A DNA stretch of 64,000 nucleotides from Nocardioidaceae bacterium (lineage in GTDB: Bacteria; Actinomycetota; Actinomycetes; Propionibacteriales; Nocardioidaceae). The translations under genes were made by a program, and so were the position numbers. The stretch is from assembly GCA_025980475.1 (NCBI GenBank), contig JAICXL010000001.1:1-64000 (forward strand), written 5' to 3'. Under the pieces are notes generated by a model that saw only the letters and a list, made by a program, of their open reading frames with translations, was not told where the DNA came from and did no database searches. Each line of letters starts with the position of its first letter. Within the stretch, counting starts at the first letter, position 1. This document shows positions 4,159 through 24,991 of this stretch, one piece after another.

Positions 4159-4167
4159 CTGCGGTGC

Positions 4168-4240
4168 GGCGGTGGAGCCCGCCGGCGAGCCCGGGTCTGA
4201 TGAGTCGGGATCGCGAACCGCATCCGCCGATGGCTCCTGC
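4168..4240 (+). ncRNA. Fluoride riboswitch upstream of eno
   Basis: GGCGGTGGAGCCCGCC ... GAACCGCATCC GCCGATGGCTCCTGC matches the crcB-motif core and pseudoknot. Confidence 0.88.
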
Positions 4241-4264
4241 AGACGCGACGTCTGGAGGAATGGC

Positions 4265-7331: not shown

Positions 7332-8404
7332 TCGGGGACTGCCTGAAGGTCACCAGCTACTTCGGCGAACGACAACACCACCAGGGACGGTTGCTGTCCG
7401 ACGCACTGCTGGACGCCTTCGAGGACTACGACCTGGCCACCAGCATCCTGCTGCGCGCCACCGGAGGCTTCGGGCTCCACCACCACCTGCGCACCGACCA
7501 AACGCTGACGATGTCCGAGGATCCCTCGCTGATGGCCATCGCCGCCGACAGCCGCTCCCAGGTCGAGGCGGTGCTCCCCCGGCTGCTGGAGCTGCAGGGC
7601 CGAGGCATGGTGACCCTCGAACGAGCTCGCCTGATCCGCGACGACCGGCCGATCGAGGAGTTCCCCGAGGAACTGCACGAGGCGACCAAGCTGACCATCT
7701 ACGTGGGACGGCACGAGCGGATCGGTCGGCAGCCGGCATACCTGGCCCTGTGCGACGTGCTGCACCGTCGTGGCATCGCCGGCGCCTCGGTGCTCATCGG
7801 GGTGGACGGCACCAGTCACGGCGCAAGGGAACGAGCCAGCTTCTTCAGCGCCAACCGCGACGTCCCCACCATGGTGCTCGCCGTCGGGGACGGACACCGG
7901 ATCCGGCGGGTGCTGCCCGAGCTGCACACCATCGTGGACAGACCGATAACCACCGTGGAGCGGGTCCGGGTCTGCAAGCGCGACGGTCATCTGCTCGCAC
8001 GCCCGCACGAGCTGCCCGAGACCACTCCTGGCGGCCTCGGGCTGTGGCAGAAGCTGACGATCTACACCTCCGAGCACCATCGCAGCGGGGGAGAGCCGAT
8101 CCACCGCGGCATCATCCGGCAACTGCGCGCCACTCGTGCACGCGGCGTCACCTCGCTGCGAGGGATCTGGGGGTTCCACGGCGACCATGCACCCCACGGC
8201 GACCGGCTCTTCCAGCTCGGCCGGAGGGTGCCGGTGGTCACCGTCGTGGTGGACACTCCCGCGGGCATCGCGCACTCCTTCGACGTCGTCGACGCTCTCA
8301 CCACCGAACACGGGCTGGTCACCTCCGAGATGGTCCCCGCCATGCAGTACCTGACCCCCGATGGCGACCGAGGGGGGCTGATTCTCGCCGACCACGACTA
8401 CTGA
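7328..8404 (+). CDS. DUF190 protein with three DUF190-like modules
   Basis: Repeated LKVTSYFGER/LTIYVGRHERI/LTIYTSEHHRS strands, each followed by GASVLIG- or GVTSLRGIWGFHG-type segments. Confidence 0.75.
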   Translation: MIGDCLKVTSYFGERQHHQGRLLSDALLDAFEDYDLATSILLRATGGFGLHHHLRTDQTLTMSEDPSLMAIAADSRSQVEAVLPRLLELQGRGMVTLERARLIRDDRPIEEFPEELHEATKLTIYVGRHERIGRQPAYLALCDVLHRRGIAGASVLIGVDGTSHGARERASFFSANRDVPTMVLAVGDGHRIRRVLPELHTIVDRPITTVERVRVCKRDGHLLARPHELPETTPGGLGLWQKLTIYTSEHHRSGGEPIHRGIIRQLRATRARGVTSLRGIWGFHGDHAPHGDRLFQLGRRVPVVTVVVDTPAGIAHSFDVVDALTTEHGLVTSEMVPAMQYLTPDGDRGGLILADHDY

Positions 8405-8476
8405 CCCACGACTCCGCATCGTCCCCGCGCATCGTCGTCCTCGCGGACTCCGGGTGGGATCTGGCACACTGGAGAC

Positions 8477-8535
8477 GGCGATGGAGCTCGCCCGGCCGGG
8501 GTCCGGCCCGAACTGCACCAGCTGATGGCTCCTGC
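8477..8535 (+). ncRNA. Fluoride riboswitch upstream of the MutS-like pair
   Basis: GGCGATGGAGCTCGCC CGGCCGGGGTCCGGCC CGAACTGCACCAGCTGATGGCTCCTGC, canonical. Confidence 0.93.
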
Positions 8536-8558
8536 ACCGCAAGGTCAGGAGTCTTCGC

Positions 8559-10094
8559 ATGCCTGCCGCTCCGTTCACCAGCCTCATCTTCCGCGGCGAC
8601 GTCAGCCTCGAAGACGTCGACGCAGCCACGCAGCCGGAGTGTTTCCACGACCTGAACCTCGACCAGCTGGTCGACAACGTGTGCGCCAACCACCAGCGCA
8701 CCAACCTGGAGCACTTCTTCTGGCTACTGCCGGGCAGCATCGAGGCGATCCGCTACCGCCAGGACGCTCTCCGGCAGGCGGCTCAGCCGGCCGTCCGCGA
8801 GGCGGTCACCGCCTTCGCCGAGGGCTTCACGAACGTCCGCATCGGCCAGTCCGAGGAGAAGCACCTGCGCTACGACCTGCAACGCCAGCGCGTCCACCTG
8901 GACACCGCGCTCGACTACTGCGCCACCGTGAAGTCCTTCGCCGAGCAGCTCAGCGGTGTGGCACTGGAATCGGAGGCCTTCGACTCGCTGCGCGCGCACG
9001 TCACCGACTATGTGGCCTCCGATGCCTTCGGTGAGCTCGAAGCCGACGCCCACCGCGTCTCGGCCGCCCTCGCGCAGGTGACCTACCTGCTGCAGATCCG
9101 GGCCAACCGGATCCGGGTGCGCCACTACGAGGAGCACCCCGACCTGAGCCGCGAGGTGGCGGAGTTGTTCGACCGCTTCAGGGAAACCCAGGACCGGCTG
9201 GAGCAGCGGCCTCGCCGGTGGACCAGCGGGTTCGGTCATGTCGAGGCCGCTGTCCTGGGCCACGTGGCCCAGCTCTTCCCCGAGCAGTTCGGATTGCTCG
9301 CGAACTTCTGTGAGAAGCACCAGCGGTTCGTGGAACGCGCCCTCGGCAGGCTCGGCCGCGAAGTCCACTTCGTGATCGCGTGGCTGGACTTCACCGACCG
9401 GCTCGATACCGCGGGGCTGTCGACCTGCTATCCCGAGCTCTCCACCGAACGCGAGCTCCAGGTGGAAGACACCTACGACGCAGCCCTGGCCGCGACCCTC
9501 GAGGGCGCGCCGGTGGTCACCAACGACGTGCGACTGGAGGGTGAGGACCGGATCATCGTGGTGACCGGGCCCAACCAGGGCGGCAAGACCACCTTCGCCC
9601 GCGCCATCGGACAGATCCACTACCTCACCGCGCTCGGGTGCCCGGTTCCGGGCAGCCGCGCACGGATCCCCGTGGTGGATCGAGTGCTGGCCCAGTTCGA
9701 GAGACAGGAGATCCCCGACAGCGACCGCGGCAAGCTCAAGGACGACCTGATCCGGATGCGCCAGCTGCTCGAAGCGGCGACACCGCAGAGCCTGGTCGTG
9801 CTGAACGAGGTGTTCAGCTCGACCGCAACCGACGACGCGCTGGCGCTGGCGCAACGGGTGCTCGACCGGCTGCTCGACCTCGACTGCTTCGGCGTGTGCG
9901 TGACCTTCCTCGACGAGCTCGCCGACGACAACCCGCGCATCGTGAGCATGGTCGCCGAGGTCGACCCCGACGACCCGAGCGTGCGCACCTTCCTCCTCAA
10001 CCGGCGGCCCGCCGACGGGAAGGCCTACGCGGCCTCGATCGCCCGCAAGTACGGGCTGACTCCCCAGCTGATCCGGGAGCGGGTGGCGTCATGA
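8559..10094 (+). CDS. MutS-like ATPase (1 of 2)
   Basis: VTGPNQGGKTTFARAIGQ Walker A, SLVVLNEVFSSTATDDAL Walker B/signature; lacks the N-terminal mismatch-recognition domain. Confidence 0.82.
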   Translation: MPAAPFTSLIFRGDVSLEDVDAATQPECFHDLNLDQLVDNVCANHQRTNLEHFFWLLPGSIEAIRYRQDALRQAAQPAVREAVTAFAEGFTNVRIGQSEEKHLRYDLQRQRVHLDTALDYCATVKSFAEQLSGVALESEAFDSLRAHVTDYVASDAFGELEADAHRVSAALAQVTYLLQIRANRIRVRHYEEHPDLSREVAELFDRFRETQDRLEQRPRRWTSGFGHVEAAVLGHVAQLFPEQFGLLANFCEKHQRFVERALGRLGREVHFVIAWLDFTDRLDTAGLSTCYPELSTERELQVEDTYDAALAATLEGAPVVTNDVRLEGEDRIIVVTGPNQGGKTTFARAIGQIHYLTALGCPVPGSRARIPVVDRVLAQFERQEIPDSDRGKLKDDLIRMRQLLEAATPQSLVVLNEVFSSTATDDALALAQRVLDRLLDLDCFGVCVTFLDELADDNPRIVSMVAEVDPDDPSVRTFLLNRRPADGKAYAASIARKYGLTPQLIRERVAS

Positions 10095-11620
10095 AGGTGA
10101 GGTTGATGTTCTCCGACGCCGACTTCGATGCGGAGCTGCCCCTGCCTGCACATGCCGAAGCGCTGGCCGCCGACCTCGGCATCCCACTGCTCCTGCAGAC
10201 CATGGCGGCGGGCGATGAGTTCCTGTTCACCATGTGCCGCGCCGCGGTGTTCCAGTCGCTGACCGACATCGCCACCATCGACTACCGCCAGCAGGTGCTC
10301 TCCGATTGCCTGGAACACCCGGCAGTAGTTCGCGGCTTCTACGACCTGGCGGTCGAAGGCGTCCAGGCCGACCGGCACATCCATCTCGGCCTCTTCCACG
10401 ATCGGCCCGGACCGAAGCTGCGCAAGGCCCGACAATGCCTGGTCGCCTATTTCGCCATCCTGCGCCGCCTCCGCGCGGAGATCGACGCCCACGCCGGAGA
10501 CTTCTCCTCACCGGGCCTGCGCCAGCTCTGCGCCACCGTGCAGGAGCAGCTGCCTTACGACTACCTCGACGAGGTCGAGGGATACCTCAAACTGCTGGGC
10601 TTTCCACGTGGCACGCTGCAAAGTGTCCGTCTCGGCAAGACCAACCGCAGCACCGACCATGTCCTGCGAACCCTTGAACAACGCGCAGGGTTGCGCCGGT
10701 TCCTGCCGGCCCAGGACTTCACCCGCCATACGGTCACCGTCGCCGACCGTGACATCGCTGGCATGGAGCAGCTGAACGAGTTGCAGGAATGGGGCCTGGC
10801 GGTCGCCGCCGACGCCGTGTCGGAGAGCGCCGACCACGTCTTGTCGTTCTTCCGCGCACTGCGCCGCGAGCTCGGCTTCTACCTGGGCGCGATCAACCTG
10901 CACCACGTCCTGACCGAGGCCAACAACGCTGCCTGCCTCCCCGAGGTGCTGGCACACGGGACCGAGCTCGAGGCAGCCGAGCTCTACGACCCTCTCCTGC
11001 CGCTGCACGGGCAACCGCACCCGGTGCCCAATGACGTCAAGACCCACGGCGGCGGGCTACTGCTGATGACCGGGGCCAACCAGGGCGGCAAGTCGACGTT
11101 GCTGCGCGCACTCGGCCTGGCCCAGCTGATGATGCAGTGCGGCCTGTTCGTGCCGGCCAGATCCTTCCGGGCGAGCGTGGCCACCGGTATCTTCACCCAC
11201 TTCAAGCGTGAAGAGGACGAGTCGATGACCAGCGGCAAGTTCGACGAGGAACTTGCCCGGATGAGCACTGTGGTCGACCAGATCGCGTCCGGCGCCCTGC
11301 TGCTGTGCAACGAGTCCTTCTCCTCCACGAACGAGCGCGAAGCCGCGGCGGTCGGCGGCGACGTCATCGGAGCCCTGATCGACGCCGGGGTGCGGGTCCA
11401 CCTCGTGACCCACCTCTACGAGCTCGCCCACCGGCTCGGCCGCGACGTCGCCGACGTCACCTTCCTCCGCGCGGACCGACGCGACGACGGCAGCCGATCG
11501 TTCCGAGTGCTCCCCGGCGAACCGCTGCGCACCAGCTTCGGCGCCGACCTGTACCAGGAAGTCTTCGGCGAACCTCTCCATAGCGCCGACGTCGACGAAG
11601 CCACGCCGGCGGACTCCTGA
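10091..11620 (+). CDS. MutS-like ATPase (2 of 2)
   Basis: MTGANQGGKSTLLRALGLAQLMMQCGLFVPA, LLLCNESFSSTNEREAA; ATGA overlap with the upstream gene. Confidence 0.85.
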   Translation: MKVRLMFSDADFDAELPLPAHAEALAADLGIPLLLQTMAAGDEFLFTMCRAAVFQSLTDIATIDYRQQVLSDCLEHPAVVRGFYDLAVEGVQADRHIHLGLFHDRPGPKLRKARQCLVAYFAILRRLRAEIDAHAGDFSSPGLRQLCATVQEQLPYDYLDEVEGYLKLLGFPRGTLQSVRLGKTNRSTDHVLRTLEQRAGLRRFLPAQDFTRHTVTVADRDIAGMEQLNELQEWGLAVAADAVSESADHVLSFFRALRRELGFYLGAINLHHVLTEANNAACLPEVLAHGTELEAAELYDPLLPLHGQPHPVPNDVKTHGGGLLLMTGANQGGKSTLLRALGLAQLMMQCGLFVPARSFRASVATGIFTHFKREEDESMTSGKFDEELARMSTVVDQIASGALLLCNESFSSTNEREAAAVGGDVIGALIDAGVRVHLVTHLYELAHRLGRDVADVTFLRADRRDDGSRSFRVLPGEPLRTSFGADLYQEVFGEPLHSADVDEATPADS

Positions 11621-11685
11621 CGATCCATCGAGACAGATGCGGCCCGGCGACGCCGCTGCTAATCTGAGAACCCCCCGGAGGGGTC

Positions 11686-11746
11686 GGCGGAGGGGCTCGC
11701 CGTCCAGCATCAGCTGGAGAACGCATCCAGGCCAACGGTCCCTGCC
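11686..11746 (+). ncRNA. Fluoride riboswitch, divergent variant, upstream of the hydrogenase-4-like operon
   Basis: GGCGGAGGGGCTCGCC ... GAACGCATCCAGGCCAACGGTCCCTGCC; pseudoknot AGGGGCT with GGTCCCT retained. Confidence 0.72.
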
Positions 11747-11801
11747 AGGCAGTACGACTGGTAGGAGACGCCGTGTCCCCTCTGTTCGCAGGGCTCGGAT
11801 C

Positions 11802-12755
11802 GTGACGCCCGGCATCGCGCTCCAGGTGATCCAGGGCCTGGTCGTGCTGGCGTTCGCACCGCTGTACGCCGGTGTCATGGCCCGTGCCTCGGCCATCGTC
11901 GCGTCCAAGCGCGGCCCCAGTATCTGGCAGCCCTACCGCGACCTGGCGAAGTGGCTGCACAAGTCGACGGTGATCAGCGACCAGGCGTCATTCGTGTTCC
12001 GGGGGGCGCCGTTCGTCGCGTTCGCCTGCTACCTGACCGTCGCGGCGATCGTCCCGATCATCACCGATCAGCCGCTGCCGCTGGCATTCCTCGGCGATCT
12101 CATCGGTGGGGCGTTCGTGCTGAGCCTGGCCAGCTTCGCGATGTCGCTGGCCGCGCTGGACACCGCCAGCCCGCTCGGCGGGCTGGGCGCAAGCCGGGCC
12201 AGCTGGATCGGCAGCCTGGCCGAGCCGGCCCTGATCCTGGTGTTCTTCACCGTGGGCGCCGTCTCGGCCTCGGACAACCCCTACCTGATGAATCAGGCAG
12301 TGGCCGGATCGCCGTACGTGATCGTGCTGCCCACGCACCTGCTGGGTCTGGTTGCGTTCTTCATGCTGGTCCTGGTCGAGGGCGGACGCATCCCTATCGA
12401 CAACCCGACCGGGTCGATCGAGATCTCGATGATCGAAGAGACCAGGGTCCTGGAGTTCTCCGGCCGCGAGTACGCGTTGGTCAAGTGGGCCAGCTGGATG
12501 AAGCTGTTCGTGCTCTCGGCGATCTTGATGAACATCTTCGTCGTCCCGTGGGGGCTGGGGGACGCGACCTCGATCACCGGCGGGCTGCTCGCGATCCCGG
12601 TGCTGCTGGGCAAGCTCGCGGTCTGTGCCTTGGCGATCGTGATCATCGACAGCTCGTTCGCCAAGCTCCGGTTCTTCCGGATCGCGGAGTTCCTCGGCGC
12701 CTCGTTCCTGCTGGCGCTGGTCGGGATCGTGACCTCCTATGTGATCGGAGCCTGA
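11802..12755 (+). CDS. HyfC/NuoH-like membrane subunit
   Basis: RGPSIWQPYRDLAKWLHKS, EGGRIPIDNPTGSIEISMIEE; multiple TM segments. Confidence 0.85.
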   Translation: MTPGIALQVIQGLVVLAFAPLYAGVMARASAIVASKRGPSIWQPYRDLAKWLHKSTVISDQASFVFRGAPFVAFACYLTVAAIVPIITDQPLPLAFLGDLIGGAFVLSLASFAMSLAALDTASPLGGLGASRASWIGSLAEPALILVFFTVGAVSASDNPYLMNQAVAGSPYVIVLPTHLLGLVAFFMLVLVEGGRIPIDNPTGSIEISMIEETRVLEFSGREYALVKWASWMKLFVLSAILMNIFVVPWGLGDATSITGGLLAIPVLLGKLAVCALAIVIIDSSFAKLRFFRIAEFLGASFLLALVGIVTSYVIGA

Positions 12756-12757
12756 GC

Positions 12758-13429
12758 ATGGAGAGCCTGAACGCCACCTCTGCCGCCGGAGTGCTGCTCG
12801 ACCTGTGCGGGGTGCTGATGCTGCTCGGCGCGTTCGCCTGCCTGGGGTCGAAGCTGTTCAATCGCTACGTCGTCTACTACGGGTTGCAGTCGGTGGTCCT
12901 GTCAGCGGCCACCGGGGTGGTCGCCTTCCACTTCGCTCGCATCGAGCTGTGGGTGCTGTGCGTGTTGACCCTGCTGATCAAGGGGATCGCCATACCGACC
13001 GCCACCCGGCGGCTGCTGATCGCACTCGAGCTGAAGCGTGACGTGGCGGTCTCGACCGGCCTGTCCACCGCCCTGATCCTGGGTGGCGGACTGACAGCAT
13101 TCGCCTACCTCGTCATTCGTCCGGACCTGTTGCCTCACGGCGTGGTGGCCTCGGCCGTGGTGCCGCTGTCGACCGCCATCGTGTTGCTCGGCGCGCTGGA
13201 GATGGTCCTGCGGCGACACACCATCGCCCAGCTGATCGGCTGGCTGATCGTCGAGAACGGCGTCTTCCTCGGCGCGATCACCTTGGTGGCGACCTTCCCG
13301 TTCATCGTGGAGGCGGGCATCTTCCTCGACCTCGTCGCCGGGGTGCTGATCATGGTGGTCTTCGTCTCCGGGCTCACCCGGGAGCTGGCGCACGCCAACG
13401 CCAGTGAGCTCAGGGAGCTGCGCGGATGA
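12758..13429 (+). CDS. HyfE-like membrane subunit
   Basis: LLIKGIAIPTATRRL, IGWLIVENGVFL; position between hyfC- and hyfF-like genes. Confidence 0.78.
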   Translation: MESLNATSAAGVLLDLCGVLMLLGAFACLGSKLFNRYVVYYGLQSVVLSAATGVVAFHFARIELWVLCVLTLLIKGIAIPTATRRLLIALELKRDVAVSTGLSTALILGGGLTAFAYLVIRPDLLPHGVVASAVVPLSTAIVLLGALEMVLRRHTIAQLIGWLIVENGVFLGAITLVATFPFIVEAGIFLDLVAGVLIMVVFVSGLTRELAHANASELRELRG

Positions 13430-14901
13430 CGACGATCCTGATCCTCCTTGCGGTCCTGCCGCTGGCCGGCACCGTGGCGGCCGTCCTCGGCGCGGCAGCA
13501 CGTGCCGCGGGCTACGCCGCCGTGGCCGGAGCGGTCGCCGCGCTTGCCCTGGCGACCTATGTACTGGTGCGGACCACCACCGAGGGGCCGTCCCAGGCCC
13601 TGGCCGGCTTCATCTACGTCGACGAGCTCAGCGGCTTCTTCCTGTTCACCGTCGCCCTGGTGGTCCTGCTCGCCTCGCTGGGATCGGCGGCCTACCTGCG
13701 AGTGGAGGAGCACACCGGCACCTTGAGCAGATTCCAGGTGCGGCTGTACTTCGGGTTCTTCGGCGCCTTCGCCTCCCTGATGCTCGCCTCACTGACCACC
13801 GGGAACCTGGGCATGCTGTTCGTGCTCATCGAGGCCAGCACCCTGGCCAGCGCCGCCCTGGTCGGCCTGGAAGCGAGGTCCACCTCGCTGGAGGCGGCGT
13901 GGAAATACATCATCATCAGCTCACTGGGAGTGACCATCGCCCTGGTCGGGACCTTGTTCTTGTTCTACTCCGCCACCGGACTGCACCTGAGCGCGAACCA
14001 GGGCCTGACCTGGCCGTACCTGTTCCACCACGCAGGTGCTCTCGCGCCGGCGAGCCTGCGACTGGCCTTCCTGCTCGCCGTCATCGGCTACGGCACCAAG
14101 GTCGGTCTCGCGCCGATGCACACCTGGCTACCCGACGCCCACTCCGAGGCGCCCAGCCCGGCCAGTGCGATGCTGTCCGCTGCGCTGCTCAACACCGGCA
14201 TGTACGCAATCATCCGGTTCCTGGCGCTAGCCCGCGTCGGCCTCGGCGATGCCTACGTTCAACGTGTCATGCTCGTCTTCGGCTTCGGTTCGGTGATCAT
14301 CGGCGTGCTGTTCATGGTCCACCGCGGCAACTTCAAGCGCCTATTCGCCTACTCCTCGGTCGAGCACATGGGCATCATCGCCATCGCATTGGGGTTCGGC
14401 GGCCCGCTGGGGATGTACGGCGCCCTCCTGCACACCCTCAACCACGCGGTCGGCAAGTCGGTGCTGTTCATCTCCAGCGGCGACGTGGTGCTCGGCTACC
14501 GCACCCGCGACGCCCGGCGCCTCCACGGTCTACTCGGCTCGCTGCCACTGACCGGCGGCGTACTCCTGCTGGGTTCCTTGGCCATCTTGGGATCGCCACC
14601 GTTTGGACTGTTCCTCTCCGAGTTCACCATCATCCGCGCCGGCTTCGCCTCCGGCAGCGGCTGGCTGCCCGCGCTGCTGCTGCTCTTCCTGGCCATCGCC
14701 TTCATCGCGTTCGCCCGGACCACCACCGGGATGGTTCTCGGTCGAGCCGACACCTCCCCGCAGGCCACCTACTCCGGCGCGGAACGAGTCCTAGCTGTTG
14801 CTCCCCTGGTGCTGGGCATCGGCGTCCTGCTGCTGCTGGGCCTGTGGATCCCCAGCGGCCTGAACCAGGCGATCCTCGCCTCGATCGGAGCCGCCACGTG
14901 A
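13426..14901 (+). CDS. HyfF/NuoN-type antiporter-like subunit
   Basis: YGTKVGLAPMHTWLPDAHSEAPSPASAMLSAALLNTGMYAIIR. Confidence 0.87.
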   Translation: MTTILILLAVLPLAGTVAAVLGAAARAAGYAAVAGAVAALALATYVLVRTTTEGPSQALAGFIYVDELSGFFLFTVALVVLLASLGSAAYLRVEEHTGTLSRFQVRLYFGFFGAFASLMLASLTTGNLGMLFVLIEASTLASAALVGLEARSTSLEAAWKYIIISSLGVTIALVGTLFLFYSATGLHLSANQGLTWPYLFHHAGALAPASLRLAFLLAVIGYGTKVGLAPMHTWLPDAHSEAPSPASAMLSAALLNTGMYAIIRFLALARVGLGDAYVQRVMLVFGFGSVIIGVLFMVHRGNFKRLFAYSSVEHMGIIAIALGFGGPLGMYGALLHTLNHAVGKSVLFISSGDVVLGYRTRDARRLHGLLGSLPLTGGVLLLGSLAILGSPPFGLFLSEFTIIRAGFASGSGWLPALLLLFLAIAFIAFARTTTGMVLGRADTSPQATYSGAERVLAVAPLVLGIGVLLLLGLWIPSGLNQAILASIGAAT

Positions 14902-16457
14902 CCAGCCGGACGACAGCCGGACCGCGACACAACCCGGTCCTCGCGGAACTGGCCACCGGGATCGGTTCACCGCAGCCACTCGGGCACGACAGCGGGACGC
15001 TGCACTTCACGGTCACGGCCGCAGACCTCGAACACTTCACCCACCGGCTCGCGGAAACAGCGGGTGCCCGACTGGCCGACCTGTTCGCCGCCACCGGTGA
15101 CCCGCCCGACCAGGTCGTGCTGAACATGCTGTGGGCCCTGGATGCCGACGACGCCTACCTTCTCATCCAGACCCAGCTCAGGGGGGAGAACTATCCCGCA
15201 CTGTCCGACATCGCGCCTGCTGCGTTCGTCGAGGAGTGCGAGATCTTCGAGCAGTTCGGCGTCCGGCCCGCGGGCGACAAGCCGCTCAACCGGGTCGCCG
15301 TGCCGCCCCAGGCTGACCACGACATCCCTCGACTGGGCGCGGCGCCCCGACACGTGGACGGTGAGGTGCACGCGCCCCACGCCGTGGGCGGGCACGCGTT
15401 CGAGTTCCCCTTCGGCCCGGTCCGGGCCAGCGCCCAGGAGTCGCTGTACTACGGGCTGGTGACCAGCGGGGAGGAGGTCGTCGACTTGTACCTGCTCACC
15501 TGGCACAAGTACCGCGGCCTGGAGTGGCGACTGCAGGGCATGCTGCCAGACGCCGCGCTGTTCTACGTCGAACGCGCCGAAGGCCTCTCCGCCGTCGCGC
15601 AAGCCTGGGCCTTCGCCGCAGCCGTCGAGCACGCCACCGGCCTGCGACCGGACCCAGGAGCGTCCCGGACCCGGGCGCTGGCCCTGGAGCTGGAGCGGCT
15701 CTACAACCACGCCGCAGCCATCGCTGCGCTGTGCCAAGCCACCGGCCTGTCCGTCGGTCAGGCCGGCGCCGAGATCGCCCTCGAGCGACTTCTGCGGGTC
15801 AATGCGGCGGTGTTCGGGCACCGGTACCTGTTCGGTGTGGTCGGAATCGGCGGAGCCCAGCGGGCACCAGATCTTGGCCCATTGCAGACCGAGCTTCCCG
15901 AGGCGGTCGCCGAGCTGCGAGCCGTCTGCCGCCTGTTGTCGGGCACCAACTCCTTTCTCGACCGGCTCGAGGCCACTGGCATCCTCACCACCGAGCAGGC
16001 CGTCCGGCTCGGCCTCGTCGGGCCCGTCGCCCGTGCCGCGGGGGTGGCGATCGACGCGCGCAACCAGCACCTGCAGCCGCCCTACGACGACGTGGCGGTC
16101 CACCCGGCGCAGGGTACGACCGGTGACGTCCTGGCCCGGTACCAGACCTTTCTTGCCGAGATCGACGAGTCAGCGCGGCTGATCAGCGAACTCGCCAGGC
16201 GAGGGGCCACCGCGGGCGGCACGACATCGCCCCGGAAGGCCGGCTCGGGCCTGGGCTGGGCGGAGTCACCACGCGGCGAGTCACTGGCCTACGTCGAGCT
16301 CGACGGCGACGGCTCCATCCGCCGGGCTCGACTGCGCCCAGCCTCGGCGCGCAACTGGAGGGCCTTCGACGACGCCTGCCGCTCCCAGAACGTCTTCACC
16401 GACATCCCCATCATCGAAGCCAGCTTCTGGCTCACGGTCGCCGGGACGGCACGCTGA
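14898..16457 (+). CDS. HyfG/NuoCD-like large subunit lacking NiFe cysteine motifs
   Basis: VERAEGLSAVAQAWAFAAAVE at the L1 position (no CxxC); C-term DIPIIEASFWLTVAGTAR (no CxxC); LALELERLYNHAAAIAAL conserved. Confidence 0.8.
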   Translation: MTSRTTAGPRHNPVLAELATGIGSPQPLGHDSGTLHFTVTAADLEHFTHRLAETAGARLADLFAATGDPPDQVVLNMLWALDADDAYLLIQTQLRGENYPALSDIAPAAFVEECEIFEQFGVRPAGDKPLNRVAVPPQADHDIPRLGAAPRHVDGEVHAPHAVGGHAFEFPFGPVRASAQESLYYGLVTSGEEVVDLYLLTWHKYRGLEWRLQGMLPDAALFYVERAEGLSAVAQAWAFAAAVEHATGLRPDPGASRTRALALELERLYNHAAAIAALCQATGLSVGQAGAEIALERLLRVNAAVFGHRYLFGVVGIGGAQRAPDLGPLQTELPEAVAELRAVCRLLSGTNSFLDRLEATGILTTEQAVRLGLVGPVARAAGVAIDARNQHLQPPYDDVAVHPAQGTTGDVLARYQTFLAEIDESARLISELARRGATAGGTTSPRKAGSGLGWAESPRGESLAYVELDGDGSIRRARLRPASARNWRAFDDACRSQNVFTDIPIIEASFWLTVAGTAR

Positions 16458-16798
16458 TGAGCCTGTGGTTTCTGCGCGGACTGCGTCGCGGCGTGGTCAC
16501 CACCCGCTACCCGAAAACTCCGCCGGATCCCTGGACAGCAACGCTGCCGACACCCCCGTCCTTCGTTACAGACCGTCTCGACATCGCGACGGCCGACGCG
16601 CTCGTCGCGGTCTGCCCACCGGCGGCACTGCGCCGCGAGGGTCTCGAGCTGGTCTACGACGTCGGCGCCTGCACTGCCTGCGGACGCTGCCTCGTCGTGG
16701 CCGACGGCGCAGCCGTGCCCAGCGGGCAGATCGAGCTCGCGACCCAACGCCGGGAAGACCTTGTCAAACGCGTCGCGATCGAAGGAGGAGTCCAGTGA
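16457..16798 (+). CDS. HyfH-like small Fe-S protein with ligands for one 4Fe-4S cluster
   Basis: VCPPAALRREGLELVYDVGACTACGRC: one CxxCxxC plus one distal CP. Confidence 0.72.
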   Translation: MSLWFLRGLRRGVVTTRYPKTPPDPWTATLPTPPSFVTDRLDIATADALVAVCPPAALRREGLELVYDVGACTACGRCLVVADGAAVPSGQIELATQRREDLVKRVAIEGGVQ

Positions 16799-17355
16799 CC
16801 AGCCCAGTGCACGGCCCGGCAGGCTTGTCCACCACGTCGTCGCATTCCGCCGATCCGGAGCGGCTCGCGGACGAACTGTCCCGCAACGTCCAGCGCTGGT
16901 TCGGCCGGAGCCTGCACATCCGCACGATCGACACCGGTTCGTGTGCCGCCTGCGAATCCGAGATCCGACTGTTGGGCGCCCCGCACTACGACCTGCATCG
17001 CCTCGGGTTCTTCTTCACCCCCGCGCCCCGGCATGCCGACCTGCTGATGGTCACCGGACCAGGCGTGCGGGCCATGGACCCCGCCTTGACCAAGACCTGG
17101 ACCGCCATGCCTGAGCCCAAGGTCGTGGTGGCGGTCGGCGCCTGTGCCCTCGGCGGGGTCTACCCGACCGACGCGTTCACCCATGGCGCGATCGACAAGG
17201 TGCTGCCCGTTGACGTCTACATCCCCGGTTGTCCGCCTTCCCCGATCGCGCTGCTGCACGGCCTGCTCGTGGCGGTGGGCAGGCTCGTCGACCGCGTCGG
17301 CGCCCAGCCGTTCACCACCACGACCACCGGCCCCGCGGCGGCATCACCATGCTGA
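16795..17355 (+). CDS. HyfI/NuoB-like small subunit
   Basis: DTGSCAACESEIRLL ... GACALGGVY ... IPGCPPSPIALLHGLL. Confidence 0.86.
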   Translation: MTSPVHGPAGLSTTSSHSADPERLADELSRNVQRWFGRSLHIRTIDTGSCAACESEIRLLGAPHYDLHRLGFFFTPAPRHADLLMVTGPGVRAMDPALTKTWTAMPEPKVVVAVGACALGGVYPTDAFTHGAIDKVLPVDVYIPGCPPSPIALLHGLLVAVGRLVDRVGAQPFTTTTTGPAAASPC

Positions 17356-19364
17356 CCGGTCTCGCGCTGGCCGTCGCAGCCGGGCTCTGGGTGCTGGCCG
17401 CCTGTGTGTCCGCGACCGGTAACCACGCGCTGCGTCTGAGGCTGACGTCGCTGATCGGCGGCGCCGGCGGCCTGGCCTGCCTCGTCGGAGGCCTCTCCAC
17501 ACTTCTCGGCGGATCGGTGCTGCACTGGCGCCTTGGCGCGGCCAACCCGGTCGGTGCGATGGTGCTGCGGGCGACACCGCTGGCGGCGGTGTTCGTCTGC
17601 CTGCTGGGTCTGGTCTCGCTGAGCATGGCCCTGTACGCGCCGCGCTACCACCATGGCGACGGGAGTATCGGCGGCTACCTGGCCGCTGTGCAGCTCGCCG
17701 AACTCGCCTCGTTGGCGCTGTTGGTGGCCGGGAACGTGACCGTGTTCCTGGTCGGCTGGGAGTCGATGGCGCTGTTCTCCTACCTGTTGGTTCTGCGCCA
17801 CCACCAGCGCGACCAGGTCGCGACCGGAGCGTTCTGGTTCCTGGCCCTGTCCGAGGCCGGGTTCGTTCTGATCGTGGCCGCCTTCGCGCTGCTCGCGGTG
17901 CGCACCGGCAGCATGGACTTCACCGTCATCGCCCACCGCGCACCCACTCTGCCGCTGGGGTTGCGCTCGGCGGTGTTCGTTTTGTCACTGCTCGGCTTCG
18001 GCTTCAAGGCCGGCATCGTACCCCTGCACGTGTGGCTGCCCGAAGCCCACCCCGTGGCGCCGGCCGACGGCTCGGCCTTCCTCTCCGGGCTGGTGGTCAA
18101 GCTCGGCATCTATGGCATCGTGCTCGTCGCCTTCGACCTGCTCGGCACCGGACCAGCATGGTGGGGCGTCCTGACCATGGGCCTGGGCGCCGCCTCTGCG
18201 GTGCTGGGCATCCTCTACGCCCTCACCGAGCGCGACCTCAAGCGGTTCCTGGCCTACTCCACCATCGAGAACATCGGCGTGATCCTGATCGCTGTCGGCG
18301 CTGCGATGACCTTCGCCGCCTATGGCAAGGCCACCTTGGGCGGCTTCCTGCTGCTCGCCGGGCTCTACCACACTGCGAACCACGGCAGCTACAAGACGCT
18401 GTTGTTCCTCGAGGCCGGCGTGATCGAGCACGCCACCGGTACCCGCAACATGGACCGCCTCGGCGGCCTTGCCCACCGGCTGCCCCGCCACGCGGTCATC
18501 ACCCTGATCGGCACAATCGGCATCGCCGCACTGCCGCCACTCAACGGCTTCGTCAGCGAATGGCTGATCTTCCAGGGCCTCTTCCAGGGCTTCCGGATCC
18601 CCAGCCACCTGGTCGGCATCCTGATCGTCACCGCCGCCGCCTGCCTCGGTCTGACCGGTGGCCTGGCGATCAACGCCTTCGTCCGCGCCTACGGCATTCC
18701 GTTCCTCGGGATGCCCCGCACCCACCAGGCCGCGGTCGCCAACGAGGACAGCCAGCCATGGGCCGGACCGACCCTGCTGGCCGCAGCAAGCGTCTTCCTG
18801 GGCCTCGGGGCGCCGCTCGTCATCACCGCCCTCGCTCGTGCCGTGCAGAACGCGACGGGGGTCAACGTGCTGCCCCAGGTTCTCGTCGGCAACCTCACCG
18901 TCCTGCCGGCCCACACCGATTTCTCGGCGTTCTCGCCCACCTACCTGGCCGTCTTCCTCATCGGGGTCACGGCCGTGCCGCTCGTGGTGTACCTGTCCGG
19001 GCACCCTGTCCGGCGCACGCGACAAGCCCCGGTGTGGGACGGCGGCATCGTCACCTTCAAACCCCGCATGCAGTACTCGGCGATGACCTTCGCCGCTCCT
19101 GTCCGAGTCACGTTCTCCCGGCTCTACCAGCCGACCGTGAAGCTCAGCCGACCCTCCGACGACGACCCCGCCGGACGCTCCGGGCCAGTCCACTACGAGG
19201 CCGAGATCGCGCCGCTGTTCCAACGCTGGCTCTACCAACCCGTCGTCAAGCTCGTCCGGGTCCTGGCCGCCGTGGTTCGCCCGATCCAGTCCGGCGACGT
19301 CAACCTCTACCTGCTCTACGTGTTCCTCGCCGTCCTGGTCGCCTACCTCCTGGCTGCGCTGTGA
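17349..19364 (+). CDS. HyfB/NuoL-type antiporter-like subunit
   Basis: GFGFKAGIVPLHVWLPEAHPVAPADGSAFLSGLVVKLGIYGIV, LKRFLAYSTIENIGVI. Confidence 0.87.
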   Translation: MLTGLALAVAAGLWVLAACVSATGNHALRLRLTSLIGGAGGLACLVGGLSTLLGGSVLHWRLGAANPVGAMVLRATPLAAVFVCLLGLVSLSMALYAPRYHHGDGSIGGYLAAVQLAELASLALLVAGNVTVFLVGWESMALFSYLLVLRHHQRDQVATGAFWFLALSEAGFVLIVAAFALLAVRTGSMDFTVIAHRAPTLPLGLRSAVFVLSLLGFGFKAGIVPLHVWLPEAHPVAPADGSAFLSGLVVKLGIYGIVLVAFDLLGTGPAWWGVLTMGLGAASAVLGILYALTERDLKRFLAYSTIENIGVILIAVGAAMTFAAYGKATLGGFLLLAGLYHTANHGSYKTLLFLEAGVIEHATGTRNMDRLGGLAHRLPRHAVITLIGTIGIAALPPLNGFVSEWLIFQGLFQGFRIPSHLVGILIVTAAACLGLTGGLAINAFVRAYGIPFLGMPRTHQAAVANEDSQPWAGPTLLAAASVFLGLGAPLVITALARAVQNATGVNVLPQVLVGNLTVLPAHTDFSAFSPTYLAVFLIGVTAVPLVVYLSGHPVRRTRQAPVWDGGIVTFKPRMQYSAMTFAAPVRVTFSRLYQPTVKLSRPSDDDPAGRSGPVHYEAEIAPLFQRWLYQPVVKLVRVLAAVVRPIQSGDVNLYLLYVFLAVLVAYLLAAL

Positions 19365-20233
19365 GACAGCACGAATCGCCACCCACTCCCCGCGGTGCCC
19401 CCCGGCGGATCCCCAGCGGCGCAGACCCAGCACCCCAGGAGTTGCGGCGCGAGGTCACCGAGCGGTACCAGGCGGGGCACTCCCTCCGGCAGATCTCAAG
19501 CACGATGGGCATCGGCCGCCGACTGGTTCGCGCCTTGCTGTCCGAGGCGGGCGCGAAGGTCCCGGCACGCGGGCGCGGGCGGCCGCGACCCGCCACCAGG
19601 CTTCCGCGCCCCCAGAACCTCCCGCAGGTCCTACGCGCCCTGTACCTCGACCAAGGCATGACGCGACGCGAAATCGCCGACGAACTCGGCGTACCCGAAC
19701 ACCGCGTCCGCGCCTGGCTGACCGAGAGCGGCATCACCCCACGAACCCGCGGCGGCGCCAACCGGGAGGACCGCCACAGAGTCCCGCGCGACGACCTGGA
19801 GAAGCTGTACGTGGATGAACGCCTCACCTCCGCGGAGGTCGGGAACCGCACGGGCGTGAACCTGCAAACCGTGCTCAAGTCCCTGCACGAACAGGAGCTA
19901 CCGGTCCGAGTCCCGAACGATTCCCAAGCCGAGATGGTCCTGCTTGACGAGCTCTACGACGACGATCTAGTGCGCCGGGCATTGCGGCGCTGGCACATCC
20001 CGGTCGTCCGGCGACCCGGGCTGGTCCACGAGCGCTTCCCGACACCGACGCCGCTTACGCACCCGCTCTTACGCGACCTCTACCTCGACTGCGGACTCTC
20101 CGGCGCGCAGATCGAACTGCTCACCGGACAGCCCTCGACCATGATTCTGGGACAACTGAAGAAGGCCGGCATCCCAAGACGCCCACCAGGTGGGCTATCC
20201 CCCTTCCTCCGCCGCGCACGACAACGGCACTGA
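19361..20233 (+). CDS. Multi-HTH DNA-binding protein of the mobile element
   Basis: Repeated HTH-like segments (YQAGHSLRQISSTMGIGRRLVRALL; YLDQGMTRREIADELGVPEHRVRAWL; YVDERLTSAEVGNRTGVN). Confidence 0.6.
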   Translation: MRQHESPPTPRGAPRRIPSGADPAPQELRREVTERYQAGHSLRQISSTMGIGRRLVRALLSEAGAKVPARGRGRPRPATRLPRPQNLPQVLRALYLDQGMTRREIADELGVPEHRVRAWLTESGITPRTRGGANREDRHRVPRDDLEKLYVDERLTSAEVGNRTGVNLQTVLKSLHEQELPVRVPNDSQAEMVLLDELYDDDLVRRALRRWHIPVVRRPGLVHERFPTPTPLTHPLLRDLYLDCGLSGAQIELLTGQPSTMILGQLKKAGIPRRPPGGLSPFLRRARQRH

Positions 20234-20344
20234 CCCCGACTCCCACACTCGGCGCCCGGACTGATGGCGTTACGCCTCGGCGCCCATCGCAACGTTCCCC
20301 CTGCACGAACCGACCCGTCGAACCCCTACACACCTCATGCCGAC

Positions 20345-20410
20345 TCGGTGCTTAAAGTTTCAACCAGTTGGTTGGGGAGCTCGTATAGCGCCACTTTCGG
20401 GGGTGTGACG
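20345..20410 (+). other. Candidate oriT upstream of the relaxase
   Basis: Inverted repeat caacca-gt-tggttg (20361-20374) followed by tcgtatagcgccactttcgggggtgtg immediately before the relaxase ATG. Confidence 0.35.
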
Positions 20411-23400
20411 ATGTCCATCCACAAGCTCACTGCCGGGAGTGGGTATGACTACCTGACCCGGCAGGTGGCGGCGATGGATGCCACCAACAAGGGCCACACC
20501 GGACTGGCGTCGTACTACACCGAGAAGGGCGAGACTCCCGGCCGGTGGGTGGGTTCGGGGATGGCCGGGATCGAAGGGCTGGCGGCCGGAGAGGTGGTCA
20601 CCGCCGAGCAGATGCAGGCGCTGTTCGGCGCCGGTCATCACCCGCTCGCGACGAAACGCCAGGCGCAGGTGCTGGCCGAGATCGGCGCCGAGGTCCGCGC
20701 CGCGGTGACCGCGCCGGGAGCCGGTGGGCGCCGTCCGCGGGGCCGGCCACGGCAGACCGTCACGCACCGGGAGCTGCAGCACCGGATGCGGGAAGCGGCC
20801 CGGCTGGGGCGCCCGTTCGCGGTCTATGACGGCGAGGTGTCGGCCTTCCGTCGGGAGGTCGCGGGCCGGTTCACGGCGTTCAACACCGCCGCCGGGCTGC
20901 CGGGCGACTGGCCTGTGCCCGTGACCGAGCGGGCACGGATCCGCACGCAGGTGGCGGTGGAGTTCTTCGGTGCCGAGCACGGCCGCGCCCCGACAGATGC
21001 CCGCGAGGTCGCCGCCACCATCGCCAGGCAGTCCCGCCCATCCGCCACGGCGGTGGCCGGGTTCGACCTGACGTTCTCCCCGGTGAAGAGCTTCTCGGTG
21101 CTCTGGGCGCTCGCCGACCCGGGCACCGCCGCACGTCTGGAGCAGGCCCACCAGGCGGCGGTCTCCGACGCGCTGGCGTTCCTCGAGGAGCACGCGTTGT
21201 TCACCCGCACCGGGCGCGACGGGGTCCGCCAGGTCGAGGCCCGTGGCCTGGTCGCGGCGGCGTTCACCCACCGCGACTCCCGCGCCGGGGACCCCGACCT
21301 GCACACCCACGTGGCGGTGGCGAACAAGGTGCAGACCGCCGATGGGCGTTGGTTGGCGATCGACGCGCGGGTGTTGTTCAAGGCCAACGTGGCCGCCTCG
21401 GAGGTCTACAACACCGCTCTGGAGGCCCACTGCGCGAAGCTGGGGCTGCGGTTCACCGAACAGCCCAATCCAGATGCCCGCAAGCGGCCGGTGCGCGAGA
21501 TCGTCGGCATCGACCAGGCACTGATCAAGGCGTTCTCCAGGCGGCGGGCCAGCATCGAGCAGCGCCGCGACGTGCTCGCCGCGCAGTTCCAGCGCGCGCA
21601 TGGCCGTCCGGCGACGGCGGTCGAGATGCTCAAGCTGGACCAGCAGGCCACCTTGGAGACCCGGCAGGCCAAGCACTCCCCGCGCAGCCTGGCCGACCAA
21701 CGAGCAGCCTGGCACACCGAAGCCAGCGACGCGCTGGGTGGTGACCGGCGGCTGCGGCGGATGCTGCGCGAGGCCTTCCACCCCGCCACGACGAAGCCCG
21801 AGCGGGTGGATAGCCAGTGGGTGTCGGCGGCCACCGACCGAGTGCTGGCGGCGGTGGAGATCCGTCGGGCGACCTGGCAGGAATGGCACGTTCGCGCCGA
21901 GGCGCTGCGCCAGGTCCGCGGCCTGGACCTGTCCGCGGCCGACCTGGGCCGGCTGGTGGACCTGCTGGTCGACCAGGTCCTCACCGACCGGTCGGTGCCG
22001 ATCAGCCGACCGGCCGCGGACGACATCACCGAGCCCGAGCTGCTGCGGCGCCGCGACGGCGCCTCGGTCTACACCATCGCCGGCTCCGAGCTGTTCACCT
22101 CAGCGCGGATCCTGGTGGCCGAACGCGAGCTGGTCGCCGCGGCCAGCCGCACCGACGGCCACCGGGTGCCCGCAGCCTGCGTCGATGCCGCACTGAGCGA
22201 GACGACGGCCACCGGGATGGTGCTGAACCGGGGGCAGGCAGACCTCGTGCGGCAGATGGCAACCTCCGGTGCCCGGGTGCAGCTGGCGATCGCCCCGGCC
22301 GGGTCCGGGAAGACCACCGCCATGCGCGCCCTCGCCGCCGCCTGGACCGCCGGCGGCGGACAGGTGATCGGGCTCGCACCCTCCGCGGCAGCCGCCGACC
22401 AGCTCGGCGCCAGCCTGCGTGGCCACCCCAACACCCGGCCCGAGGCCCGGCCCGAGGACCGGCCCGACGCCCGGCCCGATGCGGCTCTCGGTGTCGCTCC
22501 TGGTGTCGGTCCGGAGCCTGGTCCCCGGGCCGAGACGTTGGCGAAGCTGACCCACGCCCTATCGACTGGAAGGGCGACCGGGACGATCCCGGAGTGGGTC
22601 GCGGGGATCGGGCCGCAGAGCCTGGTGGTGATCGACGAGGCCGGGATGGCCGACACCCTCTCCCTGGCCACCACCGTCGGCTACATCCTCGAGCGGGGTG
22701 GCAGCGTGCGGCTGATCGGGGACGACCGGCAGCTGGCCGCGATCGGGGCCGGCGGGGTGCTGCGCGACATCGCCGCCACCCACGGAGCCCTGCGGCTCTC
22801 GGAGCTGGTCCGGTTCACCGACCCCGCCGAAGCAGCCGCCTCGCTGGCCCTGCGTGAGGGCAGACCGGAGGCGCTCGGGTTCTACCTGGACCACCAGCGG
22901 GTCCAGGTCGGCGACCAGGCCAGCCTCACCGAACAGGTCTTCACCGCCTGGGCCACCGACCGGGGTGCCGGGGTCGACGCGATCATGCTGGCCCCCACCC
23001 GGGACCTGGTCGCCGAGCTGAACCAGCGCGCCCGCACCCACCGACTTGATGCCCTGAACCCCGACCGCGGCCCCGGCCCCGGCCGCGGCCGCGGTGACGG
23101 GGTCGGTCGCGAGCGGGCGCTGGCGGACGGCAACACCGTCAGCGCCGGGGACCTGGTGATCACCCGCAGCAACGACCGGCGGCTGCGCACCAGCCCGACC
23201 GACTGGGTCAAGAACGGCGACCGCTGGCTGGTCCGCCAGGTCCACGACGACGGCGCGTTGACCGTGCAGCACACCCGACACCGCCGCACGGTCCGGTTGC
23301 CCGCGGACTACGTCGAGGCGTCCACCGAGCTGGGGTATGCCACCACCATCCACACCGCCCAGGGCCTCACCGCCCAGACGATGCACGGGCTGGTCACCGG

Positions 23401-24991
23401 GCAGGAGTCCCGCCAGCAGCTCTACACGATGCTGACCCGCGGCAAAACCGCCAACCACCTCTACCTGAAGGTCGTCGGCGACGGCGACCCGCACAACCTG
23501 ATCCGCCCCGAGACCACCCAGCAGGCCACCGCCACCGAGGTGCTCGAACAGATGCTGGCCCGCGACGACGCCGCGACCTCGGCCACCAGCCTGATCCGCC
23601 GCCAGGCCGATCTCGCCCCCCGGCTGGCCGACGCCGCCGCCTGCTATCTCGACGCCCTCTACGTCGCCGCCGAAACCACCCTCGGTCTCGACGCCGGGGG
23701 CCGTCTGGACGAGGCCACCGAGGAGCTCATCGACGGTCTCACCGAGGCGCCCGCCTGGCCGGTGCTGCGCGCGCACCTGCTGCTGATCGCCGCCACCGGC
23801 GACGACCCCCTCGACGCGCTGGCGGCCGCTGCGCGAGGCGAGTTGGACACCGCGCGTGACCCGGCCGCGGTGTTGGACTGGCGGCTGGACGACACCGGGA
23901 TGCGGGGCACCAGCCCCGGTCCGCTGCCCTGGCTCCCCGGCATCCCGTCCGCGCTCGCCCAGGACCCGCAGTGGGGCGATTACCTGATCCAACGCGCCGA
24001 GCTCGTCACCGGCCTCGCCGGCCAGCTCCGCGACGACGCCCTCACCGCCGCGGACACGATGGGCAAGGCGCCTACGTGGCTGACCGCCGAGACGAGTACC
24101 GACTCGGAGGTCGTCGCCGACATCGAGGTCTGGCGCGCCGCCATGTCCGTGGACCCCGAGGATGCGCGGCCCACCGGCGCTCCCCAGCTGCAGAAGGCGG
24201 CCGCCACCTGGCAACGCCGGCTCGACAACCGCCTCGCCAGCCAGCACACCCCGGCACTGGATGAATGGGCACCGCTGCTGGAAAACCTCCTCCCACGCAT
24301 CGGCGAGGATCGCTTCATCCAGCAGCTGGCCGAACGACTGGCAGAGCTGAACCGAGCCGGCCTCCCGGCCGCCAGTCTCGCCCACCAGGCCGCCGCCGAA
24401 CGGCCGCTGCCCGACGACCACGCCGCCGCCGCGCTGTGGTGGCGGATCACCTCCCGGTGCGACCCCGCGATCAGCACCGCCGAACTAGGCGACCGATCCC
24501 TCGTCGAGGACTGGCGGCCGCAGCTGATCGAGCTCCTCGGCGCCGACCGGGCCACCCGCCTAGAGACCAGCCCCGCCTGGCCAGCCCTGGCATCCCTGAT
24601 CGACCAAGGCACCCAACGCGGATGGCGGCTCGAGGACCTCCTCTCACCCGAGACGCGACACCACGGTCCGAGCGGACCCGACGAGATCGACGAGGGCGAG
24701 GCGATGCTCTGGCGCATCGGGACCCTGCTGCGCCCGCGCCCGACCGCGGACACCGACGACGAGCCCCTGCCCGACCACGACCCGACCCTGCAGACAGGGA
24801 TCCCGCCGTTGCCCGAACCGGCCAACCCCGACCCGCCGCCGACGGCCTCCCCCGACGAGCCGCGCTGGGCGCGGACCTGGGTCCCCCAGCCGGGACTCGA
24901 AGAGCCAGCGGGGCCGGCGACCGCACGGCACGACGAGCCGCCGCTCCTCGGGCACCGCCAGGACCGCCACCGTCCCGGCCCCAGCCGCTAA
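20411..24991 (+). CDS. traA: MobF/TraA-type relaxase-helicase
   Basis: HTGLASYYTEKGETPGRW, AGFDLTFSPVKSFSVLWALA, HRDSRAGDPDLHTHVAVANKV (HUH triad), helicase APAGSGKTTAMRAL and TIHTAQGLTAQTMH. Confidence 0.9.
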   Translation: MSIHKLTAGSGYDYLTRQVAAMDATNKGHTGLASYYTEKGETPGRWVGSGMAGIEGLAAGEVVTAEQMQALFGAGHHPLATKRQAQVLAEIGAEVRAAVTAPGAGGRRPRGRPRQTVTHRELQHRMREAARLGRPFAVYDGEVSAFRREVAGRFTAFNTAAGLPGDWPVPVTERARIRTQVAVEFFGAEHGRAPTDAREVAATIARQSRPSATAVAGFDLTFSPVKSFSVLWALADPGTAARLEQAHQAAVSDALAFLEEHALFTRTGRDGVRQVEARGLVAAAFTHRDSRAGDPDLHTHVAVANKVQTADGRWLAIDARVLFKANVAASEVYNTALEAHCAKLGLRFTEQPNPDARKRPVREIVGIDQALIKAFSRRRASIEQRRDVLAAQFQRAHGRPATAVEMLKLDQQATLETRQAKHSPRSLADQRAAWHTEASDALGGDRRLRRMLREAFHPATTKPERVDSQWVSAATDRVLAAVEIRRATWQEWHVRAEALRQVRGLDLSAADLGRLVDLLVDQVLTDRSVPISRPAADDITEPELLRRRDGASVYTIAGSELFTSARILVAERELVAAASRTDGHRVPAACVDAALSETTATGMVLNRGQADLVRQMATSGARVQLAIAPAGSGKTTAMRALAAAWTAGGGQVIGLAPSAAAADQLGASLRGHPNTRPEARPEDRPDARPDAALGVAPGVGPEPGPRAETLAKLTHALSTGRATGTIPEWVAGIGPQSLVVIDEAGMADTLSLATTVGYILERGGSVRLIGDDRQLAAIGAGGVLRDIAATHGALRLSELVRFTDPAEAAASLALREGRPEALGFYLDHQRVQVGDQASLTEQVFTAWATDRGAGVDAIMLAPTRDLVAELNQRARTHRLDALNPDRGPGPGRGRGDGVGRERALADGNTVSAGDLVITRSNDRRLRTSPTDWVKNGDRWLVRQVHDDGALTVQHTRHRRTVRLPADYVEASTELGYATTIHTAQGLTAQTMHGLVTGQESRQQLYTMLTRGKTANHLYLKVVGDGDPHNLIRPETTQQATATEVLEQMLARDDAATSATSLIRRQADLAPRLADAAACYLDALYVAAETTLGLDAGGRLDEATEELIDGLTEAPAWPVLRAHLLLIAATGDDPLDALAAAARGELDTARDPAAVLDWRLDDTGMRGTSPGPLPWLPGIPSALAQDPQWGDYLIQRAELVTGLAGQLRDDALTAADTMGKAPTWLTAETSTDSEVVADIEVWRAAMSVDPEDARPTGAPQLQKAAATWQRRLDNRLASQHTPALDEWAPLLENLLPRIGEDRFIQQLAERLAELNRAGLPAASLAHQAAAERPLPDDHAAAALWWRITSRCDPAISTAELGDRSLVEDWRPQLIELLGADRATRLETSPAWPALASLIDQGTQRGWRLEDLLSPETRHHGPSGPDEIDEGEAMLWRIGTLLRPRPTADTDDEPLPDHDPTLQTGIPPLPEPANPDPPPTASPDEPRWARTWVPQPGLEEPAGPATARHDEPPLLGHRQDRHRPGPSR

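Follow-up and report, generated by a model that had tools for sequence, protein, structure and literature searches.

Energy-converting-hydrogenase-related (Ehr) complexes, described in Sulfobacillus, Nitrospira and Margulisbacteria, resemble group 4 hydrogenases, lack the NiFe site and are of unknown function (PMC4378227, PMC10284858, PMC6349859). In the fluoride riboswitch literature, genes for formate hydrogen lyase and mutS were placed downstream of this RNA as early as Weinberg 2010 (PMC2864571), and formate hydrogenlyase (FHL) is called a common fluoride-induced enzyme in later papers, as in PMC11139923, which cites Baker 2012. No paper joining the fluoride-associated FHL with the Ehr complexes was found within the open-access literature searched. 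Here, we analyzed a 64,000-nucleotide stretch of DNA from a Nocardioidaceae bacterium (contig JAICXL010000001.1, positions 1 to 64,000; hereafter the window), which carries a hydrogenase-4-like hyf operon at positions 11802-19364, downstream of a fluoride riboswitch. We propose, with a probability of roughly 0.55, that this operon encodes an Ehr-type complex, with the architecture of complex I and group 4 hydrogenases and an emptied NiFe pocket, that belongs to a fluoride-stress clade and translocates protons or other cations.

Seven plus-strand genes, overlapping or nearly abutting, fill 11802-19364 in the order hyfC-E-F-G-H-I-B that an initial annotation of this DNA had given. They encode a HyfC/NuoH-like membrane subunit (11802-12755; Pfam NADHdh, 4e-31) with its acidic loop residues kept, a HyfE-like membrane subunit (12758-13429; NCBIfam hydrogenase 4 membrane subunit, 3.2e-17), the antiporter-like subunit HyfF (13426-14901; NCBIfam hydrogenase 4 subunit F, 3e-123; Glu/Lys/Glu kept), a HyfG/NuoCD-like large subunit without NiFe ligands (14898-16457), characterized by alignment, an AlphaFold model and 17 relatives, a HyfH-like protein with one 4Fe-4S cluster (16457-16798; alignment with E. 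coli HyfH), a HyfI/NuoB-like small subunit (16795-17355; Pfam Oxidored_q6, 9.4e-25) and a further antiporter-like subunit, HyfB (17349-19364; NCBIfam hydrogenase 4 subunit B, 7.6e-175; Glu/Lys/Lys/Glu kept). Antiporter-like and NuoH-like membrane subunits share one operon, the arrangement by which Ehr complexes are recognized. Both antiporter-like subunits, described earlier as intact, retain the Glu of transmembrane helix (TM) 5, the Lys of TM7 and the Glu of TM12, and, judged by such residues, the membrane proton path of the window complex is intact. For the window's type, the ratio of nonsynonymous to synonymous substitution rates (dN/dS), taken from four close pairs, lies between 0.03 and 0.34 across subunits, lowest in HyfC and HyfI and highest in HyfH; by this measure, the operon's subunits are under purifying selection. 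Since HyfG, HyfH and HyfI are present and under constraint, the complex falls outside the definition of an Mrp antiporter, which has membrane antiporter subunits but no peripheral redox arm.

In an alignment of the large subunit with E. coli HyfG, RVCGICGFAH faces RAEGLSAVAQ in the window protein and SLDPCYSCTDR faces SFWLTVAGTAR, so that both the RxCGxC motif and the C-terminal CxxC are gone, as the initial annotation had stated. The four NiFe ligand positions are occupied by E228, S231, T513 and G516 and, across 17 aligned relatives, by E/D, S/G/N, T and G. The protein terminates at R519, the Arg of CTDR, and lacks the tail that follows in E. coli HyfG; in hydrogenases, this C-terminal tail is cut off when nickel is inserted. 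None of 33 close relatives, which are loci from a scan of genome contigs (numbered L...), has a Cys at any NiFe ligand position. The earlier reading had named displaced NiFe-ligating cysteines beforehand as the alignment result that would overturn it; none was found, and this possibility was rejected, the nearest approach being a lone Cys one residue ahead of the first ligand position, present only in a divergent subclade (L026, L029-L034) and absent from the window protein. With ligands and tail missing and the relatives in agreement, the claim that this is not a hydrogenase holds.

The AlphaFold model of HyfG (pLDDT 77.6) has E. coli HycE as its best PDB match (7z0s_E, TM-score 0.80), a protein in whose pocket Glu193 is the loop acid and Arg478 a canopy residue (PMC9474812). 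Their counterparts E181 and R459 are kept in the window and invariant in 17/17 relatives, as are E507, T513 and G516; by residue conservation, the pocket is strongly conserved, not decayed. The canopy Asp is replaced by W511, and Q180 and G229 stand at the positions of the quinone-site His and Tyr of complex I. Because the ligands are lost and the quinone His/Tyr and canopy Asp are replaced, neither H2 chemistry nor standard quinone chemistry is expected of this pocket.

Comparison with relatives also strengthens the claim of fluoride-riboswitch control, which in those relatives would act through a covarying aptamer placed before hyfC. A fluoride aptamer was found at E <= 1e-3 in all 33 source genomes of the relatives, in 25 cases above the gathering score. 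Rfam alone proved too strict for the aptamers before hyfC, which scored 22-33 bits or were missed (15/27 found at E <= 1e-3, below the cut-off). Our own model, built from 31 aptamers, placed an aptamer upstream of hyfC, 24-66 nt from the match, in each of the 27 close homologs whose 5′ end is intact; 7 of these were in the training set and 20 were not; among these aptamers, those of L011 (20.7 bits) and L019 (24.5 bits) are weak. When 34 hyf-associated aptamers are aligned, pairing is complete (100% of cells) in both helices, pseudoknot included; 14 cells are changed on both sides, and 0/500 shuffles are as good. As 7 of the 27 loci had helped to train the model, independent tests were made on genomes of the phylum and on plasmids.

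HyfG-like proteins occurred in 53 of an unselected sample of 397 genomes from the phylum, and 20 loci were read out. Seven of these have hyfC first and hyfB last, all without NiFe ligands; the other 13 start with hyfB or hyfI, some with and some without these ligands. The switch is present in 5/7 hyfB-last loci versus 0/13 loci of other order (p = 0.0014). For two of the five (aptamers at 3082-3155 in L077 and 14553-14626 in L078), it leads through a dynamin-like GTPase gene, which is there the first gene of the hyf run behind the aptamer. Plasmids of Mycobacterium branderi and Burkholderia multivorans, both hyfB last, carry above-threshold Rfam aptamers before the complex and have enolase, DUF190, inorganic diphosphatase, dynamin or MutS genes as its neighbors; in the plasmid complexes of Azospirillum, Rhizobium and Rhodococcus, which begin with hyfB or hyfI, no fluoride switch was found. 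Genomes and plasmids combined, the switch accompanies 7/9 hyfB-last versus 0/16 other-order complexes (p = 7e-5), the gene order having been noticed after the first loci were read and the plasmids examined afterwards. An Alicyclobacillus plasmid with only hyfG left was excluded from this count. On that plasmid (L100, Alicyclobacillus sp. ALC3), the lone HyfG gene (8543-10245) immediately follows a fluoride aptamer that Rfam scores at 47.4 bits, and other subunits are missing nearby, save a short HyfC-like piece (13228-13470).

The tree agrees with the gene order: one branch with support 100/99 unites all 47 hyfB-last large subunits in a clade separate from the hydrogenases and from the other Ehr complexes. 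Large subunit, antiporter arm, relatives and tree are thus in accord with the Ehr type that had been claimed. The switch-linked complex is carried by acidic-soil bacteria and by some isolates in culture.

Turning to the iron-sulfur clusters, the relatives bear out both that the small-subunit cluster cysteines are intact and that HyfH has four cysteines for one 4Fe-4S cluster. The HyfI ligands CxxC, GAC and PGC are retained in 32/32 close relatives, and GSCAACE in the window has the hydrogenase-type CxxC spacing. The HyfH residues C53, C72, C75 and C78 are retained in 31/32; they correspond to the fourth Cys and the second CxxCxxC of the two-cluster pattern of E. coli HyfH, the outer cluster having been lost. 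The retained cluster is the inner one, closer to HyfI, and corresponds to N6b of complex I. At L005, HyfH (11547-11867) is short of one of the four cysteines (CTVAGWC), and its near relative L007 has CTACGRC.

All four HyfI cluster cysteines are lost, mostly to Asp, Glu or Ser, in nine of the clade's operons (L011, L013, L016, L017, the second copy of L018, L024, L080, L082 and M. branderi); several of these lie in the same island as a copy that has the cluster. These cluster-less operons retain the key membrane residues, but the TM8 Lys of HyfB is replaced by Asn; in two cluster-less pairs, HyfI dN/dS is 0.20-0.24. A fluoride aptamer lies at the operon in two of the nine (L018, 14470-14547; M. 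branderi, with a NUDIX gene in between), L080 and L082 are without one, and the sequence of the others breaks off ahead of hyfC. The existence of cluster-less, fluoride-controlled forms means that electron transfer via the small subunit is not essential to every fluoride-controlled member. The redox reaction coupled to ion translocation that is presumed of Ehr complexes would here have an electron path that is conserved in part only. In L093 (1518-8683, hyfI first), a non-fluoride Ehr complex, just one of the four HyfI cluster cysteines is left (GSTNACE, GDD, PGDPP), so cluster loss occurred more than once.

In the window, the fluoride switch of the initial annotation was recovered as an RF01734 aptamer at 8468-8541 on the plus strand (cmscan 40.5 bits, E 9.1e-8; gathering score 34), but it precedes two MutS-like genes and not hyfC directly. 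The first gene after it encodes MutS-like ATPase a (8559-10094, plus strand; Pfam MutS_V, 2.4e-20), overlapped by that for ATPase b (10091-11620, plus strand; MutS_V, 6e-17). A probable decayed aptamer lies at 11677-11756 on the plus strand, 46 nt before the hyfC start codon (own model R1, 12.1 bits, filters off); letters of its core GATG and CTGATG are altered, and relatives have an intact aptamer at this place. A promoter and terminator scan of the window gave no more matches than in shuffles.

HF entry, and fluoride stress generally, acidifies the cytoplasm, the export of fluoride uses up proton-motive force, and Na+/H+ antiporters are the second commonest class of fluoride-riboswitch genes (PMC11139923; HF, hydrogen fluoride). 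Given this acidification and this gene class, translocation of H+ or another cation for the repair of pH and proton-motive force is the simplest common function. In the mechanism that we propose, fluoride would bind the aptamer and raise expression of the complex in this strain, and the complex would move H+, or H+ against Na+ or K+, via HyfB, HyfF and HyfC. Such translocation would offset the acidification and the loss of proton-motive force that arise as HF enters and dissociates and fluoride is exported. As to the driver, the clusters kept in the window's type would allow electron input, for instance from ferredoxin through HyfH to HyfI, to some acceptor, and cluster-less relatives would have to run without electrons; for the family, electron input and redox-independent ion exchange are about equally likely. 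The so-called fluoride-induced FHL is probably an ion-moving machine that aids survival of fluoride.

Several observations weigh against an ion-translocating complex under fluoride control. In the window, 3.3 kb lie between the good aptamer and hyfC downstream of it, and the hyfC-proximal aptamer is decayed, so that control of hyf depends on read-through. Among the conserved neighbors, which comprise MutS, enolase and MFS/dynamin-type clusters besides unnamed ones, no electron-donor partner was recognized. Moreover, the retention of clusters in the window's type argues against a machine wholly free of redox chemistry, and the missing quinone-site and canopy residues against a quinone-reducing one. 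The riboswitch could also serve the MutS-like pair only, the hyf operon being an unrelated neighbor in this genome, given that hyfC is not immediately preceded by an intact aptamer and that about 180 nt separate MutS b from hyfC. We consider this improbable, since every intact close homolog has its own aptamer before hyfC and in the window the interval from 8541 to hyfC showed no terminator-like site.

How an ion-moving complex of this kind would be driven can be read in more than one way. We tentatively entertain a redox-driven pump with a new acceptor, in which a ferredoxin-like donor would pass electrons through HyfH and HyfI to a substrate in the remodeled HyfG pocket, much as polysulfide receives them in MBS or quinone in complex I; the near-complete retention of the HyfI and HyfH ligands, the invariant pocket residues and the place of HyfI among the most constrained subunits are as such a pump would have them. 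It is opposed by the replaced quinone and canopy residues, by the CxxC hydrogenase spacing in place of the three-ligand catalytic cluster of MBS (PMC7684303), by the fluoride-clade paralogs without a proximal cluster, and by HyfH being the least constrained subunit. MBS-like catalysis at an open cluster is likewise not favored, as four ligands are kept. A redox-independent, Mrp-like antiporter, whose peripheral arm would be a structural or gating lid while the membrane arm swaps H+ for Na+ or K+, is possible at a similarly tentative level: it would account for the nine operons that lost all four HyfI cysteines yet kept their membrane residues, with HyfI still constrained in two pairs and an aptamer at two operons, but the window's own type retains its clusters and cluster-less HyfB has Asn for the TM8 Lys. 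More speculatively, this branch of the complex I superfamily may be a fluoride-stress ion transporter with no need of redox chemistry, its peripheral arm, which would first have lost NiFe and then, in several lineages, the proximal iron-sulfur cluster as well (Cys to Asp, Glu or Ser), serving the antiporter arm as a gate or ion sensor. A working FHL or energy-converting hydrogenase, as the literature label has it, is extremely unlikely: the closest solved relative of HyfG is indeed HycE of FHL, and the genome has HypD and another hydrogenase, but the four ligands and the maturation tail are absent across the family, which rules out a hydrogenase or FHL identity, and no formate dehydrogenase or HycB-type gene was found in the operon or the window neighbors examined, the rest of the genome not having been searched.

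Two further arguments were discarded. Missing NiFe maturation genes cannot be used as support, HypD and the other NiFe-type hydrogenase being encoded elsewhere in the genome, and the complex is not the cell's only complex I, as nuoA and a tandem-Cys nuoB lie at a contig end; the single PF00146 and PF00346 genes therefore reflect a gapped assembly.

The fluoride locus is larger than the initial annotation had stated. It adds a second, weaker aptamer before enolase (4159-4246, plus strand; RF01734, 25.4 bits, below gathering), with an intact GGAGC/GCTCC pseudoknot, and a gene for a DUF190 protein, often found near fluoride exporters (7217-8404, plus strand; Pfam, 9.5e-65). A third aptamer elsewhere in the genome lies just ahead of crcB-like genes (crcB assigned by eye). 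The enolase gene (4265-5547) is split between two frames, the N domain lying in that of 4004-4777 and the C domain at 4663-5547, either by a frameshift or by an assembly error. Dynamin-like genes occur in several fluoride islands, including the window (1788-3563). The pair of MutS-domain-V ATPases also stands beside the complex in L005, L007, L012, L014, L016, L018, L020, L023, L031 and L034, often behind its own fluoride aptamer, and matches KamC, the MutS-like reactivase of lysine aminomutase; from this resemblance, its role may be enzyme reactivation rather than DNA repair. After hyfB comes a helix-turn-helix protein gene (19361-20233; HTH_58/sigma-70 region 4-like), with homologs near the complex in L004, L005, L006, L007, L010 and L012 (38-43% identity). 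Directly beyond the fluoride island, a TrwC/TraI-type relaxase-helicase (20264-24991) suggests that the island lies in or beside a conjugative element.

The identification joins two puzzles: the switch-linked complex is of the Ehr type and not a hydrogenase, and fluoride would be its physiological signal. Ehr complexes thereby gain a testable role in cultured organisms, namely pH and ion homeostasis under HF stress, and the cluster-less members would be natural complex I-like machines without redox cofactors, useful for the study of ion movement in the membrane arm. The initial annotation had held that a fluoride-responsive redox or ion-pumping complex would be functionally new; the link between fluoride and FHL has been in print since 2010 (PMC2864571), and what is new is the identity of the complex, that is, fluoride-linked complexes without a NiFe site that form an Ehr-type clade including cluster-less forms.

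Compared with known systems, the window complex shares with described Ehr complexes a group 4 hydrogenase-like membrane assembly and a large subunit without NiFe ligands, and differs in having hyfB last, a clade of its own, fluoride aptamers, a single HyfH cluster and cluster-less paralogs. With the FHL genes of the fluoride riboswitch papers, it shares the RNA class, the gene annotation and the listed mutS; these papers accept the gene name, whereas the window complex is not an FHL, and we infer that the FHL genes of Baker 2012 belong to this clade. E. coli hydrogenase-4 and FHL are homologous to it subunit by subunit, with HycE as the best PDB match, but the window lacks the NiFe site, the tail and formate dehydrogenase, has hyfB last instead of first, and encodes a short HyfH. 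The Pyrococcus sulfane reductase MBS is likewise a NiFe-less member with an antiporter arm, but has a proximal catalytic cluster with three Cys ligands, a shortened loop and a larger Mrp-like arm (PMC7684303), whereas HyfI in the window has four ligands and CxxC spacing. Finally, respiratory complex I shares the 49-kDa fold and the membrane arm, whereas the window complex is without the tandem Cys for N2 in its NuoB equivalent, the quinone His/Tyr and the NADH module.

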